From Flavobacteriales bacterium (GTDB lineage: Bacteria > Bacteroidota > Bacteroidia > Flavobacteriales_F > PHOS-HE28), in assembly GCA_016787995.1 (NCBI GenBank), contig JAEUTB010000042.1, forward strand, positions 1-33,308: a stretch of 33,308 nucleotides of DNA, in the 5' to 3' direction. The notes beneath the pieces are model-generated. The model searched no databases, was not told the DNA's origin, and saw nothing but the letters and a program-made list of their open reading frames with translations. The position numbers and the translations under genes are program-made. Shown piece by piece: positions 28,801-33,308 of this stretch (positions within the stretch are counted from its first letter, which is position 1; each line of letters starts with the position of its first letter).

Positions 28801-30394
28801 TTACGTTCTTGACAACACCGACGATTGTCCCACCCTACCCGGCCGCGTCGGGGATAGTTGCAATGATGGCAATGCTGGGACCACTGGCGATGTGATCACC
28901 GCAGCCTGTGTATGCCTGGGCACCCCGATCGGCGATTGCACCAACTATACGCTCGAGTTGCAGAGCGGCGGCGGCATGGCGAACGCTGTGACCTACGAAG
29001 TGCTGGATGAGACCGGTGTAGCCACCATCCTCAGTGGGAACAACCCTGTACCATCGGATGGTGTCGGCACCCTGAACCTCTGTCTGCCCGACGGATGCTA
29101 TCAGTTGCGCATCACGGATAGTGCTGGCGACGGCCTGCTCGGCTACATCCTTCGAGAAACAGGTCCCAATGCACGCCGTGTGATCGACAACGCGTTCAAC
29201 ATGAACGACGGAGTAAGCCAGATCAGCGCCGGAGGAGGCTTCTGTTTACCCTTGGGTGATGACCGCCTCATCTGGAGCAGCTGCGACAAGCTCGATTGGA
29301 TCGACAACAAGTTCATCGTGGCAAGTTCCAATACGGCCGTATCCGCCCAGTTCGGTATTACCAATACCACCAGCGGCTATGAGTTCTGGTTCTTCGACCC
29401 CAACGGCGGCTTCAGCTTCCGCCGATTCCGGAGCCACGCCACCAGTGATGGTACAGGCAGCGGTGCAACAAGGGCCTGCCACTTCAAGGTGAATGGCTGG
29501 TTCAACACACCGAGCACTCCGCACTTGCCCGACAACGTACTGTTGAACGTGCGGATCCGTGGTCGGGTGGCCGGCAACAACCTACCATTCGGACCGGCCT
29601 GCCAGTTCATGCTGGACGCCGCGTTGGCCGCATGTCCACGGGTGAAGCTCCAGGATGATCCGTACAACGCGGCGGACTACAGCTGCGGCGTTTCGCGCAA
29701 TTTCGGTGGAGGTAGCAGCGCCGCTAATCGGATCCATGCCGCACCACCACAACCGATACCCTCGGTGCCCAGCAACCTGGTGCGCTACCAATTCCGGTTC
29801 CGTATCCCCAGTGAAGGGATCTGCATCGTGCGGCCTCCCCAAACCAGCGCGCGCATGGTATTGAACTGGACCAATGGGGCTCCTTTGCAGTGCACCAAGA
29901 CCTACGAGGTGGACGTGCGCGTGAGCTTGGACGGGGGTGCCTCCTGGTGCTTCGGTCCCGCTGGAAGCAGCGCGACGACAGCCTGCGCCGATACCGAGGA
30001 TTGGGGCAAAGTATGTTTGGTCACTATCAACCCCTGCGCGGGGGTGAGCGGCGGAACGAATGCGATGATCGGTGGCACCAACGCGGATCCGATCGACCTT
30101 CTCCCCGATGAGCAACGTGTGGTGCTTTATCCGAACCCGAACCATGGCGACCAACTGTTCCTGGTCTTGAACGACCTTGAGAACGAAGTACACGTGGTCC
30201 ACATGGACATTCTCGACCTAACCGGCAAACGTGTGATGACCCGCTCGATCCCGGTGCAGGCCCACGGAGCTGACGCGGGTGGTTCCGTGAACACCAACCT
30301 CACCTTGAGCGAAGACCTGAGCAGTGGGGTGTACATCGTTCACCTCTCCGTGGGTGATCGCGACCACATCGAGCGCTTGGTCATTCAACGGTAA
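25853..30394 (+). CDS. T9SS type-A secreted beta-solenoid protein with thrombospondin type-3-like repeats
   Basis: The product has 1513 residues from the ATG at 25853, which gives a good signal peptide (ending near EGMAQ); a longer in-frame start at 25778 falls inside the shared promoter-like element and was rejected. Residues about 25-470 are built of N-N-G-T-x-x-W-S/K-G-G-type repeats that suggest a beta-solenoid. About 625-765 carry Asp-rich D-x-D-x-D-G-x-x-D repeats alternating with C-x-C-G motifs, like calcium-binding thrombospondin type-3 repeats. Two further Cys/Asp-rich blocks lie near 895-945 and 960-1025. The final about 90 residues (from YPNPNHGD to IERLVIQR) fit the type-A T9SS sorting domain. 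It is followed by a terminator. A surface or released structural protein is likely; no enzyme domain was seen. Confidence 0.88.
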   Translation: MKYLIRSLIVLALVAGITSEGMAQLFRSANSGNWNAIGTWQQSTDGGASWGPAAATPTNASGEITVRAPHTVTVAAPVNLDDVTVEAGGTVTTTTGGIAWVINNGTFGVRIFGTFNANAGGGSFGCCGSVSVENGGVVNMNNGGAFFGPTTVQVGGTVIGNTPINLGGGTIVNHGTWTMTGTNGITLSGGGSLTNNGTMVWKGGTLSGTLTNNGTLTWSGGTITSSPLGVINNGASATFICNWNTAQNGSINNQGTFTWSAGTFLSFTAIGTFLNAPSATFNMAGNAGFNTFYQAVTNQGTINFSVAGSLLANPGTTLNNSGTINVNAGTWIWGHPTSNTGSLNIANGATLDISQSTTISGPVSNAGTLMGSIASFTGTTFTNNGSVTLTNLPFNGSAAQTLTGTGSISNLTLNNTNGLTLGGSQTVTGTLTLTNGRITLGNNDLVLSNTNLAALVGGNATNHIVTNGTGSFRRNLPVSGADYPFPIGTGASYLPVILSNTSGPQERFGARVQNDVHSDYSTPGTPAGNVVGNEQVERTWVISEQTDGGNQATLQVQWNSTDEGVNFDRANSALHSYNGTDWVALALGAAGGSNPYTRSASNVAVFREFTVADGESTLPFVCNNGLTPGSLCNDNDACTINDVVTAGCQCAGTFQDADGDGTCDLNDGCPNDPNKTLPGSCGCGVSDVDSDNDGTLDCNDACPLDPNKIIPGDCGCGVSDLDSDDDGTADCNDGCPNDPLKISPGGCGCGTPEVDTNNDGACDGNSACTAFIAPHLSGIPDAGPAITIEPACPPSNVGFVLINICSDATGIYRLYDEVTDVVVDFGQMNGCGATGHGCPGGGLSCLWESWQLPAGPYSLRLYNDLSGSQPLACARIDFTVPGAGACCGGLGPVGTPCDDGNACTVNDSLNTSCLCVGVLLDSDSDGTCDADDACPMDPNKVAPGACGCGAPDVPQTYYADTDEDGFGDPNSTIAGYTCDQPTGYVLDNTDDCPTLPGRVGDSCNDGNAGTTGDVITAACVCLGTPIGDCTNYTLELQSGGGMANAVTYEVLDETGVATILSGNNPVPSDGVGTLNLCLPDGCYQLRITDSAGDGLLGYILRETGPNARRVIDNAFNMNDGVSQISAGGGFCLPLGDDRLIWSSCDKLDWIDNKFIVASSNTAVSAQFGITNTTSGYEFWFFDPNGGFSFRRFRSHATSDGTGSGATRACHFKVNGWFNTPSTPHLPDNVLLNVRIRGRVAGNNLPFGPACQFMLDAALAACPRVKLQDDPYNAADYSCGVSRNFGGGSSAANRIHAAPPQPIPSVPSNLVRYQFRFRIPSEGICIVRPPQTSARMVLNWTNGAPLQCTKTYEVDVRVSLDGGASWCFGPAGSSATTACADTEDWGKVCLVTINPCAGVSGGTNAMIGGTNADPIDLLPDEQRVVLYPNPNHGDQLFLVLNDLENEVHVVHMDILDLTGKRVMTRSIPVQAHGADAGGSVNTNLTLSEDLSSGVYIVHLSVGDRDHIERLVIQR

Positions 30395-30413
30395 GGAACC
30401 GACCAACGGAACG

Positions 30414-30446
30414 GGAGGAGGTCGTCCGGTAAGGGCGGCCTCTTCC
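30414..30446 (+). terminator. Intrinsic terminator-like hairpin after the type-A T9SS gene
   Basis: A core stem GAGGTCGTCC / GGGCGGCCTC (10 bp, two G-U pairs) with a 5-nt GGTAA loop extends outward by about four more pairs. It is followed by a pyrimidine-rich tract (TCTTTCCTCCC). It starts 19 nt after the stop at 30394. Confidence 0.75.
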
Positions 30447-30526
30447 TCTTTCCTCCCAACGGCGGTCAAGCCGGTAGAGCGGTCCATTTCTTTTCCCGGG
30501 ACCTGCCGTACCGTTCCCTAAGGATC

Positions 30527-30534
30527 TACTTTTG
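30527..30534 (+). promoter_or_regulatory. -7 promoter box TACTTTTG upstream of the arginine decarboxylase leader ORFs
   Basis: TACTTTTG is an exact match to the Bacteroidota -7 consensus TAnnTTTG. It ends 5 nt before an ATG at 30540, the same spacing as at 10398. No good -33 TTG is visible 17-23 nt upstream. It lies well past the terminator at 30414, in the 428-bp stretch between annotated genes. Confidence 0.55.
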
Positions 30535-30539
30535 CCCGC

Positions 30540-30638
30540 ATGACCACGGCTTGGAATGATCTGCGGATGCACCTGCCCCCTTGCGGCTGCCAGGTGTCGT
30601 CCAACGTTCCTGTGGCCGGTCGCCCCCCCTTCCGCTGA
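30540..30638 (+). CDS. Candidate 32-residue leader ORF upstream of arginine decarboxylase
   Basis: This small ORF begins 5 nt after an exact -7 box. It has 32 codons, contains a Pro-Pro-Cys-Gly-Cys stretch in the middle and ends in G-R-P-P-F-R. Its stop overlaps the start of the next small ORF (TGATG). I do not recognise the peptide. Position and overlap suggest a leader peptide in the arginine decarboxylase transcript, but no experimental or family evidence supports translation. The stretch may instead be plain untranslated leader. Confidence 0.35.
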   Translation: MTTAWNDLRMHLPPCGCQVSSNVPVAGRPPFR

Positions 30639-30826
30639 TGAACGCACGAAGCCTCTCCGTGACCCGGCTGCAGCAAGCCATCCACGCGCAAGGACTTCCG
30701 CTTCTTCCCCTTGATCCCCTATCCGGCATCCGCTGCTTCGGATCCGGGATGAAGCAACGTCCGCAACAGGAAGGCCCTCAATCGCTTCCCTACTACCCAC
30801 ACCTCCTTCCTTCGACCGAAGCATGA
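30638..30826 (+). CDS. Candidate 62-residue ORF overlapping the arginine decarboxylase start
   Basis: This ORF begins at the ATG overlapping the stop of the 32-codon ORF, and its own stop overlaps the arginine decarboxylase ATG (ATGA). The peptide is rich in Pro, Gln, Leu and Ser, has no signal peptide and no recognised domain. Overlap at both ends would allow translational coupling from the promoter at 30527 through to the decarboxylase. The coding potential itself looks low. An earlier in-frame TTG at 30581 is possible but less attractive. Confidence 0.35.
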   Translation: MNARSLSVTRLQQAIHAQGLPLLPLDPLSGIRCFGSGMKQRPQQEGPQSLPYYPHLLPSTEA

Positions 30827-32238
30827 AGACCCGTTACGTCGACCTCATCGAACAGACCTTCGACTTCCCCAAGGACGAATTCAAGATCGATGATGATCAG
30901 CTCCTCTGGAACGACCTGCCTTTGGTGGAACTGCTCGAAAAGCACGGAACACCGCTGCGGATCAGCTACCTGCCCAAGATCGGTGAGAAGATCGACATGG
31001 CCCGGAACAGCTTCGCCAAGGCGATGAAGGAACATGAGTACAACGGCACGTACGAGTACTTCTACTGCACCAAGAGCAATCACTTCCACTATGTGATCGA
31101 CAAGGTGCTGGACAAAGGGGTGAACCTGGAGACGAGCAGCGCGTACGATCTGGAGATGATCGAGCTGTTGATCGAACGCGGCCGGATCACCAAGGACAGC
31201 ACCATCCTGTGCAATGGTTTCAAGGATGAGCGCTACATCAAAGGCATCGGTAGGCTCGCCAACCGGGGCTTCAACGTGGTGCCCATCATCGACAACATGG
31301 CCGAGATCTACCACCTCGACGAGGTGATCGAAGGCCATTGCGACATCGGCATCCGCATCGCCGCTGAAGAGGCGCCGAAGTTCGAGTTCTACACCAGCCG
31401 CCTGGGCATCGGCTCCAAGGACATCATCCCCTTCTATATGCGCAACATCAGCAAGCAGAAGAAATTCCGCTTGAAGCTGATGCACTTCTTCATCAACACG
31501 GGTATCACCGACACGGCCTACTACTGGAACGAGCTGGGCAAATGCGTGAACGTTTACTGCGACCTGTGGAAGCTGTGCCGCACGCTGGACACGCTGGACA
31601 TCGGTGGTGGCCTGCCCATCAAGAACAGCCTCAACTTCAGTTTCGACACCGACTACATGATCGGCGAGATCGTGGGTCGCATCAAGGACATCTGCGAAGA
31701 GAACAAGGTGCACGAACCCAACATCTTCTCGGAGTTCGGCAGCTTCACCGTGAGCGACAGCGGTGCCACCTTCTTCAGCATCGTTCACCAGAAGAAGCAG
31801 AACGAAAAGGAACGGTGGAACATGATCGACGGCAGCTTCATGACCACGCTACCGGACACTTGGGCCATCAGCAAGCGGTTCATCATGCTGCCGGTGAACA
31901 ATTGGAACGATGAGTATGAGCGCGTGTTCCTGGGCGGTATGACCTGTGATAGCGACGACTATTACAACAGCGAGCAGCACATCAACGCCATCTACCTGCC
32001 CAAGTACCGCGAAGACCGCAAGCAGTACATCGGTTACTTCAACACCGGCGCTTACCAGGATACCTTGGGCGGCTTCGGCGGCATCCAGCACTGCCTCATC
32101 CCGAAACCGAAACACGTGCTCATCGATCGCCTGCCGGATGGAACGCTGACGGACAAGGTCTTCGCCGAGCAGCAGAGCGCTGAACGGATGCTGCAACTGT
32201 TGGGCTATCTGCCCATGGAAGAGCCTGTGCGGAAGTGA
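30823..32238 (+). CDS. speA: Arginine decarboxylase, PLP-dependent fold-III type
   Basis: The product has 471 residues, the usual length of the Bacteroidota enzymes annotated as arginine decarboxylase and shorter than E. coli SpeA. PLP-binding K84 lies in YCTKSNHF, the phosphate-binding glycine loop in DIGGGLP, and a C-D-S-D-D motif near residue 374-378 matches the catalytic Cys region of the family. The canonical E-P-G-R motif reads E-F-G-S here, as expected for this subfamily. It should convert arginine to agmatine in the cytoplasm as the first step of polyamine synthesis. Substrate assignment follows family annotation; a related diamino-acid decarboxylase cannot be excluded. It is preceded by two overlapping small ORFs and followed by a deoxyhypusine synthase-like gene. 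Confidence 0.85.
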   Translation: MKTRYVDLIEQTFDFPKDEFKIDDDQLLWNDLPLVELLEKHGTPLRISYLPKIGEKIDMARNSFAKAMKEHEYNGTYEYFYCTKSNHFHYVIDKVLDKGVNLETSSAYDLEMIELLIERGRITKDSTILCNGFKDERYIKGIGRLANRGFNVVPIIDNMAEIYHLDEVIEGHCDIGIRIAAEEAPKFEFYTSRLGIGSKDIIPFYMRNISKQKKFRLKLMHFFINTGITDTAYYWNELGKCVNVYCDLWKLCRTLDTLDIGGGLPIKNSLNFSFDTDYMIGEIVGRIKDICEENKVHEPNIFSEFGSFTVSDSGATFFSIVHQKKQNEKERWNMIDGSFMTTLPDTWAISKRFIMLPVNNWNDEYERVFLGGMTCDSDDYYNSEQHINAIYLPKYREDRKQYIGYFNTGAYQDTLGGFGGIQHCLIPKPKHVLIDRLPDGTLTDKVFAEQQSAERMLQLLGYLPMEEPVRK

Positions 32239-32331
32239 GTTTCGAGTGATCCGTGGCCAGTAGCGAGTCTGCCGTCTCCTCGGTTCAAATGGAAGTTGCG
32301 CGGCAGACTCGCTACTGGCCACTCAAAACTC
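32237..32331. repeat. Large intergenic palindrome (perfect 21-bp arms plus imperfect outer arms)
   Basis: The arms at 32254-32274 and 32301-32321 are perfect reverse complements separated by 26 nt. Outer arms GAGTTTCGAG (32237-32246) and CTCAAAACTC (32322-32331) also pair with one mismatch, offset by a 7-nt insertion on the left. The left outer arm overlaps the decarboxylase stop codon. The motif CGAGT recurs within the arms. No T-tract follows, so a REP- or MITE-like element fits better than an intrinsic terminator. Confidence 0.85.
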
Positions 32332-32336
32332 GCCCC

Positions 32337-32390: not shown

Positions 32391-33308
32391 ATGAGCAACC
32401 GACCGATCAGCAGCTTCATCGAGAAGCACTACCTGCACTTCAACGCCGCCGCACTGGTGGATGCCGCGAAGGGCTACAAGGAACACCTCGGCAAAGGCCG
32501 CAAGATGATGGTGACCCTCGCCGGTGCCATGAGCACGGCCGAATTGGGCAAGATCCTCGCCGAGATGATCCGCCAGGGCAAGGTGGACATCATCAGCTGC
32601 ACCGGCGCCAACCTGGAGGAGGATGTGATGAACCTGGTGGCGCACGACCACTATGAGCGCGTACCGAACTACCGCGACCTGACCCCGCAACAGGAGCGCG
32701 ATCTGTTGGACCGCGGCATGAACCGGGTAACGGACACCTGCATCCCCGAACACGAAGCCTTCCGCCGCCTGGAGAAACACGTGGTGGACCTGTGGACGGC
32801 CGACGATAAGAGCGGCAACCGCCGTTTCCCGCACGAGTACTTCTACGAGATGATCCGCAGCGGGGTGTTGAAGCAGTATTACCAGATCGATCCGAAGGAC
32901 AGCTGGATGGTGGCCGCCGCCGAGCGCAACCTGCCGATCATCTGTCCCGGATGGGAGGATAGCACCCTGGGCAACATCTTCGCGGGCCACTGCCTGGTGG
33001 GCGATTGCAAGCCGGGCATGATGAAGAGCGGCATCGAATACATGATGTTCCTGGCCGAATGGTACACCAATAATTGCGGCGACGCCGGCATCGGCTTCTT
33101 CCAGATCGGGGGGGGCATCGCCGGTGATTTCCCCATCTGTGTGGTCCCCATGCTGCACCAGGACCTGCAGCGCGACAACATCCCCTTCTGGAGCTACTTC
33201 TGCCAGATCAGCGACAGCACCACCAGCTACGGCAGCTATAGCGGCGCCGTGCCCAATGAAAAGATCACTTGGGGAAAACTCGACATCGATACCCCGAAGT
33301 ACATCATC
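32391..33308 (+). CDS. Deoxyhypusine synthase-like protein (3' end outside window)
   Basis: The frame is open to the window end; 306 codons are visible and about 15-20 residues are probably missing. The family motifs are present: S-C-T-G-A-N-L-E-E-D near residue 66-75, a P-G-W-E-D-S-T-L-G motif in the middle, G-G-G-I-A-G-D-F-P near the NAD site, and W-G-K296-L, which aligns with the catalytic lysine (K329) of human deoxyhypusine synthase. Bacteria lack eIF5A, and bacterial relatives are reported to transfer aminobutyl groups to polyamines such as putrescine, forming homospermidine. Its place after arginine decarboxylase supports a polyamine role. The exact substrate cannot be read from sequence. 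Confidence 0.9.
   Translation, partial: MSNRPISSFIEKHYLHFNAAALVDAAKGYKEHLGKGRKMMVTLAGAMSTAELGKILAEMIRQGKVDIISCTGANLEEDVMNLVAHDHYERVPNYRDLTPQQERDLLDRGMNRVTDTCIPEHEAFRRLEKHVVDLWTADDKSGNRRFPHEYFYEMIRSGVLKQYYQIDPKDSWMVAAAERNLPIICPGWEDSTLGNIFAGHCLVGDCKPGMMKSGIEYMMFLAEWYTNNCGDAGIGFFQIGGGIAGDFPICVVPMLHQDLQRDNIPFWSYFCQISDSTTSYGSYSGAVPNEKITWGKLDIDTPKYII

Follow-up and report, generated by a model that had tools for sequence, protein, structure and literature searches.

Nascent-peptide control of arginine and polyamine genes is known from eukaryotes, where the fungal arginine attenuator peptide and the polyamine-responsive uORF peptides act with an established ligand and without a relay reading frame. 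Arrest peptides that sense metabolites of the polyamine pathway are, to our knowledge, known in few bacteria. The closest described system is SpeFL/orf34 of the gammaproteobacteria, an L-ornithine-sensing arrest peptide encoded upstream of speF (PDB 6TC3). According to the accessible text of PMC8429421, which also names the fungal arginine attenuator peptide, RF1-mediated release is inhibited on SpeFL, while an amino acid is able to block the release of TnaC, the leader peptide of the tna operon, at its UGA stop, with Rho-dependent attenuation. Rho and a CU-rich stretch have been described for the Salmonella speF leader as well (available part of PMC6386406). A different kind of control comes from overlapping reading frames: ATGA and TGATG overlaps couple translation through termination-reinitiation, and Bacteroidetes seemingly do not use Shine-Dalgarno sequences for initiation or reinitiation (PMC6728339, in the portion accessible).

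Here we describe a leader ahead of a speA-like gene of the Bacteroidota that would combine elements of both. The window, by which we mean the whole stretch of DNA that was analysed (33,308 bases), contains the following features:

30527..30534, + strand: -7 promoter element TACTTTTG of the Bacteroidota sigma-ABfr type, the sole TAHHTTTG in the window
30540..30638, + strand: ORF1, 32-codon leader peptide MTTAWNDLRMHLPPCGCQVSSNVPVAGRPPFR, found in 40/41 readable loci of the genus
30627..30638, + strand: Pro-Phe-Arg-stop (UGA), the conserved end of ORF1 (codon counts and tree)
30636..30640, + strand: TGATG stop/start overlap of ORF1 and ORF2 (TGATG/ATGA recurrence in the genus loci)
30638..30826, + strand: ORF2, relay frame of 62 codons without sequence conservation (open frame, dN about equal to dS in 4/6 informative pairs)
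30648..30698, + strand: three-tier RNA hairpin (pairing, covariation, folding z)
30639..30822, + strand: leader stretch rich in C and poor in G, on which Rho might load if it is left untranslated (base composition)
30823..30826, + strand: ATGA overlap of ORF2 and speA
30823..32238, + strand: speA-like PLP decarboxylase, 471 aa (NCBIfam, Pfam, solved-chain comparison)
32391..33308, + strand: deoxyhypusine-synthase-like gene, running past the window edge (Pfam DS 2.4e-35)

The box, ORF1, the RPPFR at its end, the TGATG, ORF2, the ATGA and speA all lie base for base where the original prediction had put them, and ORF1 starts with an ATG at 30540, 5 bases after the box. The top NCBIfam matches of the speA-like protein are models of biosynthetic arginine decarboxylase, with scores far under their cut-offs; it passes the Pfam Orn_Arg_deC_N cut-off, and the solved chains nearest to it (3nzq, 3n2o and 3nzp) are arginine decarboxylases. 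Judged by these matches the product is likely an arginine decarboxylase, arginine being the predicted substrate. The enzyme is a short form (471 aa) and is followed by the deoxyhypusine-synthase-like gene. Between the two genes, at 32243-32332, sits an inverted repeat (32243-32274 / 32301-32332) with 32-nt arms that are 88% complementary and a gap of 26 nt. Five antisense or alternative ORFs across the leader region were compared with Pfam and none matched, save one at E 0.47.

In its outlines the ORF1 leader would work like SpeFL and TnaC. The comparison with SpeFL and speF made in the original prediction is apt as an analogy, as both leaders have a short ORF (34 aa in SpeFL, 26-43 codons in the loci of this genus) upstream of a polyamine decarboxylase gene, with an arginine before the stop. 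However, SpeFL precedes an ornithine decarboxylase, whereas the gene downstream of ORF1 is nearest to arginine decarboxylases, below the family cut-offs. Unlike SpeFL, moreover, ORF1 belongs to the Bacteroidota, ends on UGA, and has a stop that overlaps a second ORF running into the enzyme gene. A UGA stop is read by RF2. When we used a SpeFL sequence verified against 6tbv/6tc3, BLASTP gave no alignment to the ORF1 of the window at E up to 100, nor to any of 39 ORF1s when E was allowed to reach 1. Because of this lack of similarity and of the different enzyme downstream, ORF1 is not a sequence member of the SpeFL family. TnaC is a different peptide ahead of a different gene, and we know of no relay ORF that overlaps its stop. 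Both overlap types of the known termination-reinitiation pairs are used in the speA leader; unlike in those pairs, an enzyme gene is reached through two overlaps in a row from two short ORFs that have no known relatives, and the middle ORF is near-neutral in sequence. Attenuators of the trp/his type are marked by a run of regulatory codons and an intrinsic terminator. In the ORF1s only the terminal arginine is conserved (RR occurs in 5/39), no intrinsic terminator-like site was found in the window between 30380 and 30900, and only 2/39 leaders contain a five-T run.

We examined the leader across the family, which comprises one genus in the genome collection used. SpeA is present in 44/45 genomes, and its start was readable in 42 loci; one of these, L010, has 49 nt of upstream sequence, too few for the leader to be read, which leaves 41. 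The arrangement of box, ORF1 and speA occurs in 40/41 of these loci with adequate upstream sequence, and L025 is the only one without ORF1. Because of this recurrence the arrangement is more than chance, and we hold it very likely that a conserved leader ahead of speA is real. The expectation of the original prediction is borne out among the relatives in that the ORFs, the overlaps (37/40) and the peptide end are conserved. Where several ORF1 starts were possible, one shortly after the box was picked by hand (GTG in L002 and L044). L073 equals L004 in ORF1 and ORF2 as read; it is omitted from the 39-locus counts below and kept in the 40-locus counts, while parsimony on the speA tree covers 33 loci. 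Those relatives that carry a name are genomes of uncultured Flavobacteriales, Bacteroidetes or Bacteroidota, bar one metagenome record (L042) labelled Chryseobacterium gleum; it carries a speA of this genus, and the label looks wrong. In 30/39 loci ORF1 is preceded by a CorA-like gene at a distance of up to about 1300 nt; this gene was not found upstream in the other nine, the window included (L075 covers only 426 nt); in the window its place is taken by a 1538-aa ORF that ends at 30394. Since the upstream neighbour varies, the leader stays linked to speA.

TAHHTTTG is the refined -7 element of Flavobacterium johnsoniae, with its G at -5 (PMC6847099, accessible text). If the promoter geometry of that species applied to the box of the window, the transcript would begin near 30539, a single base ahead of ORF1, which would make ORF1 nearly leaderless. 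The window contains one other TANNTTTG, at 30012, inside a gene and with a G at an H position. As 5.2 occurrences of TANNTTTG are expected by chance, the lone box proves nothing, and it is its recurrence at the same place that counts. With a loosened motif, a box-like element was found 4-23 nt before ORF1 in 40/40 loci, and such gaps would give transcript leaders of 0-19 nt. Nineteen of these boxes are strict TAHHTTTG; the other 21, among them 13 TTACTTTG, are looser and therefore less sure as promoters. From the start of ORF1 to speA, no second -7 box, strict or loosened, was found in 39 loci. Hence ORF1, ORF2 and speA probably share a single transcript, and a transcription start downstream of 30640, named in the original prediction as its refuting case, is spoken against by the same result.

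The peptide end of ORF1 is highly conserved. Phe-Arg is found at the end of 37/40 ORF1 peptides (the exceptions are ER in L009, FV in L017 and YR in L075), and over the 39 distinct loci arginine is last in 38, phenylalanine penultimate in 37, and proline or alanine occupies position -3 in 35. At positions -4 to -20 the most frequent residue reaches 13/39 at most. On the speA tree base 3 of the terminal arginine codon changed ten times, whereas bases 1 and 2 each show one change, with a single change of the amino acid; ten amino-acid changes were counted at codon -3, and 14-20 at each of codons -4 to -12. As the changes in the arginine codon concentrate at base 3, selection acts on the end of the peptide and not on a DNA motif. 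The stop is TGA in 40/40 loci. ORF1 thus has in common with termination-arrest leader peptides that its stop is fixed and the C-terminal residues before it are conserved. The body of the ORF is a different matter: it is unalignable between many species, and a DQTW core is found in 11/39 ORF1s scattered over the speA tree (5 changes). The body has thus been exchanged, or has diverged past recognition, several times. In most close pairs dN/dS is 0.09-0.61, a value of about 1 being found in L047/L051 and L002/L031 (the latter from an ungapped alignment), which points to mild purifying selection on the body in most close pairs. When the DQTW peptide was searched across the genus, 10/10 matches at E < 1e-3 were speA leaders.

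The second conserved property is the overlap. ORF1 and ORF2 share a stop-start overlap in 37/40 loci, namely TGATG in 29 and ATGA in 8, with no overlap in 3 (L003, L047 and L051); over the 39 distinct loci the counts are 28, 8 and 3. Across the 33 loci of the speA tree there were 8 switches of type, which means that an overlap is maintained while its form is free. At its other end ORF2 terminates on the ATGA of speA in 28/37 loci, with 7.1 expected for random phase and sequence and 16.3 if the length is kept; 33/37 end between 10 nt before speA and the overlap, and 4/37 end 33-61 nt before it. Both junctions are thus of the ATGA or TGATG kind on which translational coupling of overlapping ORFs is based. 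The distance from the ORF1 stop to speA is 118-222 nt, and over 36 loci we counted 9 stops in the frame of ORF2, the remaining frames having 49 and 28. In 4/6 informative pairs of equal length, dN and dS of ORF2 are about equal (0.35 and 0.40; 1.45 and 1.30; 1.26 and 1.37; 0.43 and 0.40), the pair L015/L016 having too few changes to be included. Because of the open frame and these similar rates we regard ORF2 as a relay whose frame is clearly selected and whose peptide is selected little or not at all. In the other two pairs dN is about half of dS (1.12 and 2.24; 0.61 and 1.17), so the peptide may not be wholly neutral.

Ten bases past the ORF1 stop a hairpin begins, at 30648-30698 in the window, with tiers at 30648-30654/30692-30698, 30658-30661/30683-30686 and 30666-30669/30676-30679; the pair 30652-30694 is non-standard in this register and bulged in the predicted fold. 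Counted over the 8 alignable loci only, L004 being poorly aligned among them, 90.4% of cells pair, vs 30-50% with the partner slid. Three pairs changed on both sides, but the covariation score is reached by 19/500 shuffles, so that covariation is modest. The hairpin of the window folds with a z of -1.5, and over 39 loci the mean z is -1.58 for the hairpin stretch and -0.74 for the stretch after it; in 14/39 loci the hairpin z lies above -1. With RNAalifold a 10-locus clade yielded a single hairpin at about this position and a 29-locus set no common fold, as hairpin sequences differ between clades. The switching stems that had been proposed are not supported. The sequences of both, CACCTG/CAGGTG inside ORF1 and ATCCG/CGGAT in ORF2, do occur in the window, but it is a different hairpin, the one at 30648-30698, that is conserved; for the stem within ORF1, the body is unalignable between many species, and the folding of the final 66 bases of the ORF does not surpass that of shuffled sequences (39 loci, mean z +0.06). 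In Rfam, 30100-31000 of the window gave nothing over threshold (two unrelated families appeared below it, at E up to 5), nor did the loci L011 and L023.

The leader after ORF1 is rich in C and poor in G (mean 42.5% and 23.5% over 39 loci; 30.3% and 26.1% in speA), C exceeding G in 39/39 loci. A Rho gene is present in 6/6 near-complete genomes of the genus and was not found in the genome of the window, which is 73.9% complete.

Comparative sequence thus shows ORF1, constraint at the level of its peptide, the overlaps, an open and weakly constrained ORF2, and the hairpin. We read ORF1 as a candidate stop-codon arrest peptide and ORF2 as a near-neutral relay, and we infer, with a probability of roughly 0.55, that the leader gates speA through regulated termination on ORF1; translation of both ORFs, their coupling, the sensing and its direction all belong to this inferred part. 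Transcription from the -7 box would produce a nearly leaderless mRNA, given the promoter geometry, on which ORF1 would be translated first. [Pro/Ala]-Phe-Arg at the UGA would then set how fast the ribosome terminates. We propose termination at Phe-Arg-UGA as the regulated step because TnaC and SpeFL act at a fixed stop through the nascent end. Termination on ORF1 would most likely be slowed by a metabolite of the arginine, agmatine and polyamine pathway; arginine, agmatine or a polyamine as the ligand is a guess. Prompt termination would allow reinitiation at the overlapping start of ORF2, and the ribosome on ORF2 would unwind the hairpin, keep the C-rich leader covered, and terminate on the ATGA of speA, from where it would reach the speA start. 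That speA is fed by ribosomes that have finished ORF1 is suggested by the overlaps, the lack of a second -7 box and the apparent lack of Shine-Dalgarno use, and coupling of decarboxylase translation to the ORFs, as originally predicted, appears to be the best reading. A stall on ORF1 would leave ORF2 and speA untranslated, and the bared C-rich RNA might admit Rho and end transcription. The stall would thus switch speA off, which is predicted to be the opposite sense to SpeFL and TnaC. Several observations speak against such a gate and relay: the 3 loci without overlap, the variant ends of L017, L009 and L075, and L025 without ORF1. The same holds for the 4/37 ORF2 frames that stop early, the two ORF2 pairs with dN at about half of dS, the two ORF1 pairs with dN/dS of about 1, the modest covariation and weaker folding of some hairpins, and the share of strict boxes (19/40). 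As the body of ORF1 is so variable, it is difficult to picture a ligand pocket common to all, and the end alone may matter.

A simpler possibility is plain coupling without sensing, in which ORF1 and ORF2 merely bring ribosomes to speA and Phe-Arg-UGA favours efficient termination and reinitiation. The variable body of ORF1, the near-neutral ORF2 and the apparent disuse of Shine-Dalgarno sequences in Bacteroidetes (PMC6728339, as accessible) fit it, and short ORFs that solely deliver ribosomes have already been proposed (PMC12548453, in its accessible part). Such coupling would, however, be expected at many genes. A 14-mer motif, SCNTTYCGNTGATG, has 114 sites in 7 genomes, outnumbering the reversed control in each of them, and with that many sites it is not specific by itself; yet when 29 of the 114 sites were read, a -7 box within 170 nt was found only at the speA site. 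Moreover, a three-residue end kept over deep divergence suggests regulation of speA, and so does the different speA leader in a second family, described below. We therefore consider plain coupling unlikely, while taking it seriously.

Attenuation by charged tRNA would place the decision one codon earlier: when arginyl-tRNA is scarce the ribosome would wait one codon before the stop, ORF2 would not be started, and arginine would be spared. The terminal arginine in 38/39 loci fits this, as does its codon, which is CGC, CGA or CGT in 38/38 and CGG, AGA or AGG in 0/38, these three making up 19.6% of the arginine codons within speA; the 8 loci of the ATGA type need a codon ending in A anyway. CGC, CGA and CGT share one tRNA. 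Against it, the ORF1s lack a run of arginine codons (RR occurs in only 5/39), and the conserved phenylalanine at -2 and proline or alanine at -3 are left unexplained by tRNA supply, which makes this account improbable. We give even less credit to antitermination after the manner of TnaC and SpeFL, in which a ligand-induced stall at the ORF1 stop would hide a Rho site and switch speA on. The C-rich leader, the Rho gene and the two precedents (PMC8429421, accessible text) speak for it, but a ribosome stalled at the stop codon would sit on the start of ORF2 and block it, although selection keeps the ORF2 frame leading into speA, and the footprint of that ribosome would cover little of the 118-222 nt between the ORF1 stop and speA. 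That the leader is an element of RNA only, with incidental ORFs, would agree with the conserved hairpin but is very improbable, as base 3 of the arginine codon is free while bases 1 and 2 are fixed, and stops are avoided in the frame of ORF2.

A different leader ORF is found in a second family (f53), which we take to be Flavobacteriaceae. We read 36 loci of this family; a profile of its leader (FGLLKIRKSYSKAAYR...) matches 23 of them, including its 10 seeds, and these matches lie in the 30 loci whose SpeA scored highest across 60 genomes. Five further loci have a leader ending in NIRV or NIRQ, and in the other 95 loci the profile gave no confident match (one at E 0.47). Like ORF1, this leader is a short ORF upstream of speA with a UGA stop (TGA in 27/27 listed loci, L107, where the frame runs on, being left out). 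It has a conserved body of its own of about 50-60 codons, ends about 50-150 nt before speA and does not overlap it. The leader loci of the family are L093-L122, L062, L063, L065, L067 and L070, at about 50-260 nt upstream of speA. Its ends include PFRI, TFRI, PIRI, QIRI, QIQI and NIRV, in most cases with Q, R, L or M followed by a hydrophobic residue, and some resemble PFR-stop with one extra hydrophobic residue. No homology to ORF1 is recognisable, and from the sequences we cannot tell whether the two ends are related or convergent. In one of these loci (L122, 1075-1153) a Flavo-1 RNA of Rfam (58.7 bits) lies upstream of the speA leader region.

Elsewhere in the class, an ORF after a box was found in 16/86 loci with a recognised speA start, several of these cases being probably due to chance; 19/105 class loci were omitted as the pattern missed their speA start, and 4 of them were restored for the profile counts above. 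By eye, and uncounted, the other members of the class that were inspected show no such leader, and a box-like element often stands close before speA. In another family one locus (L141) has a 30-aa ORF 150-57 nt upstream of speA, after a TAGATTTG box, which ends in GGYQLRI and may represent another, third type of leader or have arisen by chance. Leader-peptide attenuation upstream of amino-acid biosynthesis operons has been described in F. psychrophilum, in a paper whose supplement lists 64 structured 5' regions (PMC9723704, accessible part), and the f53 leader may be among them. Among the openly available papers listed in our literature search, which covered titles and the beginnings of abstracts, there was no report of a speA leader peptide in Bacteroidota.

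Taken further, the leader might represent a new class of metabolite-responsive arrest peptides, characterised by [Pro/Ala]-Phe-Arg-UGA and gating a relay ORF, which would bring about feedback repression of the entry into polyamine synthesis. This reading, which includes kinship or convergence with the PFRI, PIRI, NIRV or QIQI-UGA ends of the second family, is tentative, and we place it somewhat short of even odds. If it is true, termination itself would be regulated and a relay frame would carry the decision to speA, with repression as the outcome, unlike the induction by SpeFL and TnaC. A relay ORF retained chiefly for its reading frame would provide a natural test of how events at a stop codon are passed on to a downstream gene, and through the leader of the second family some of the mechanism could be tested in culturable hosts. 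Such control would then have arisen more than once, here in a second lineage with another peptide and another enzyme, in a phylum without Shine-Dalgarno initiation.
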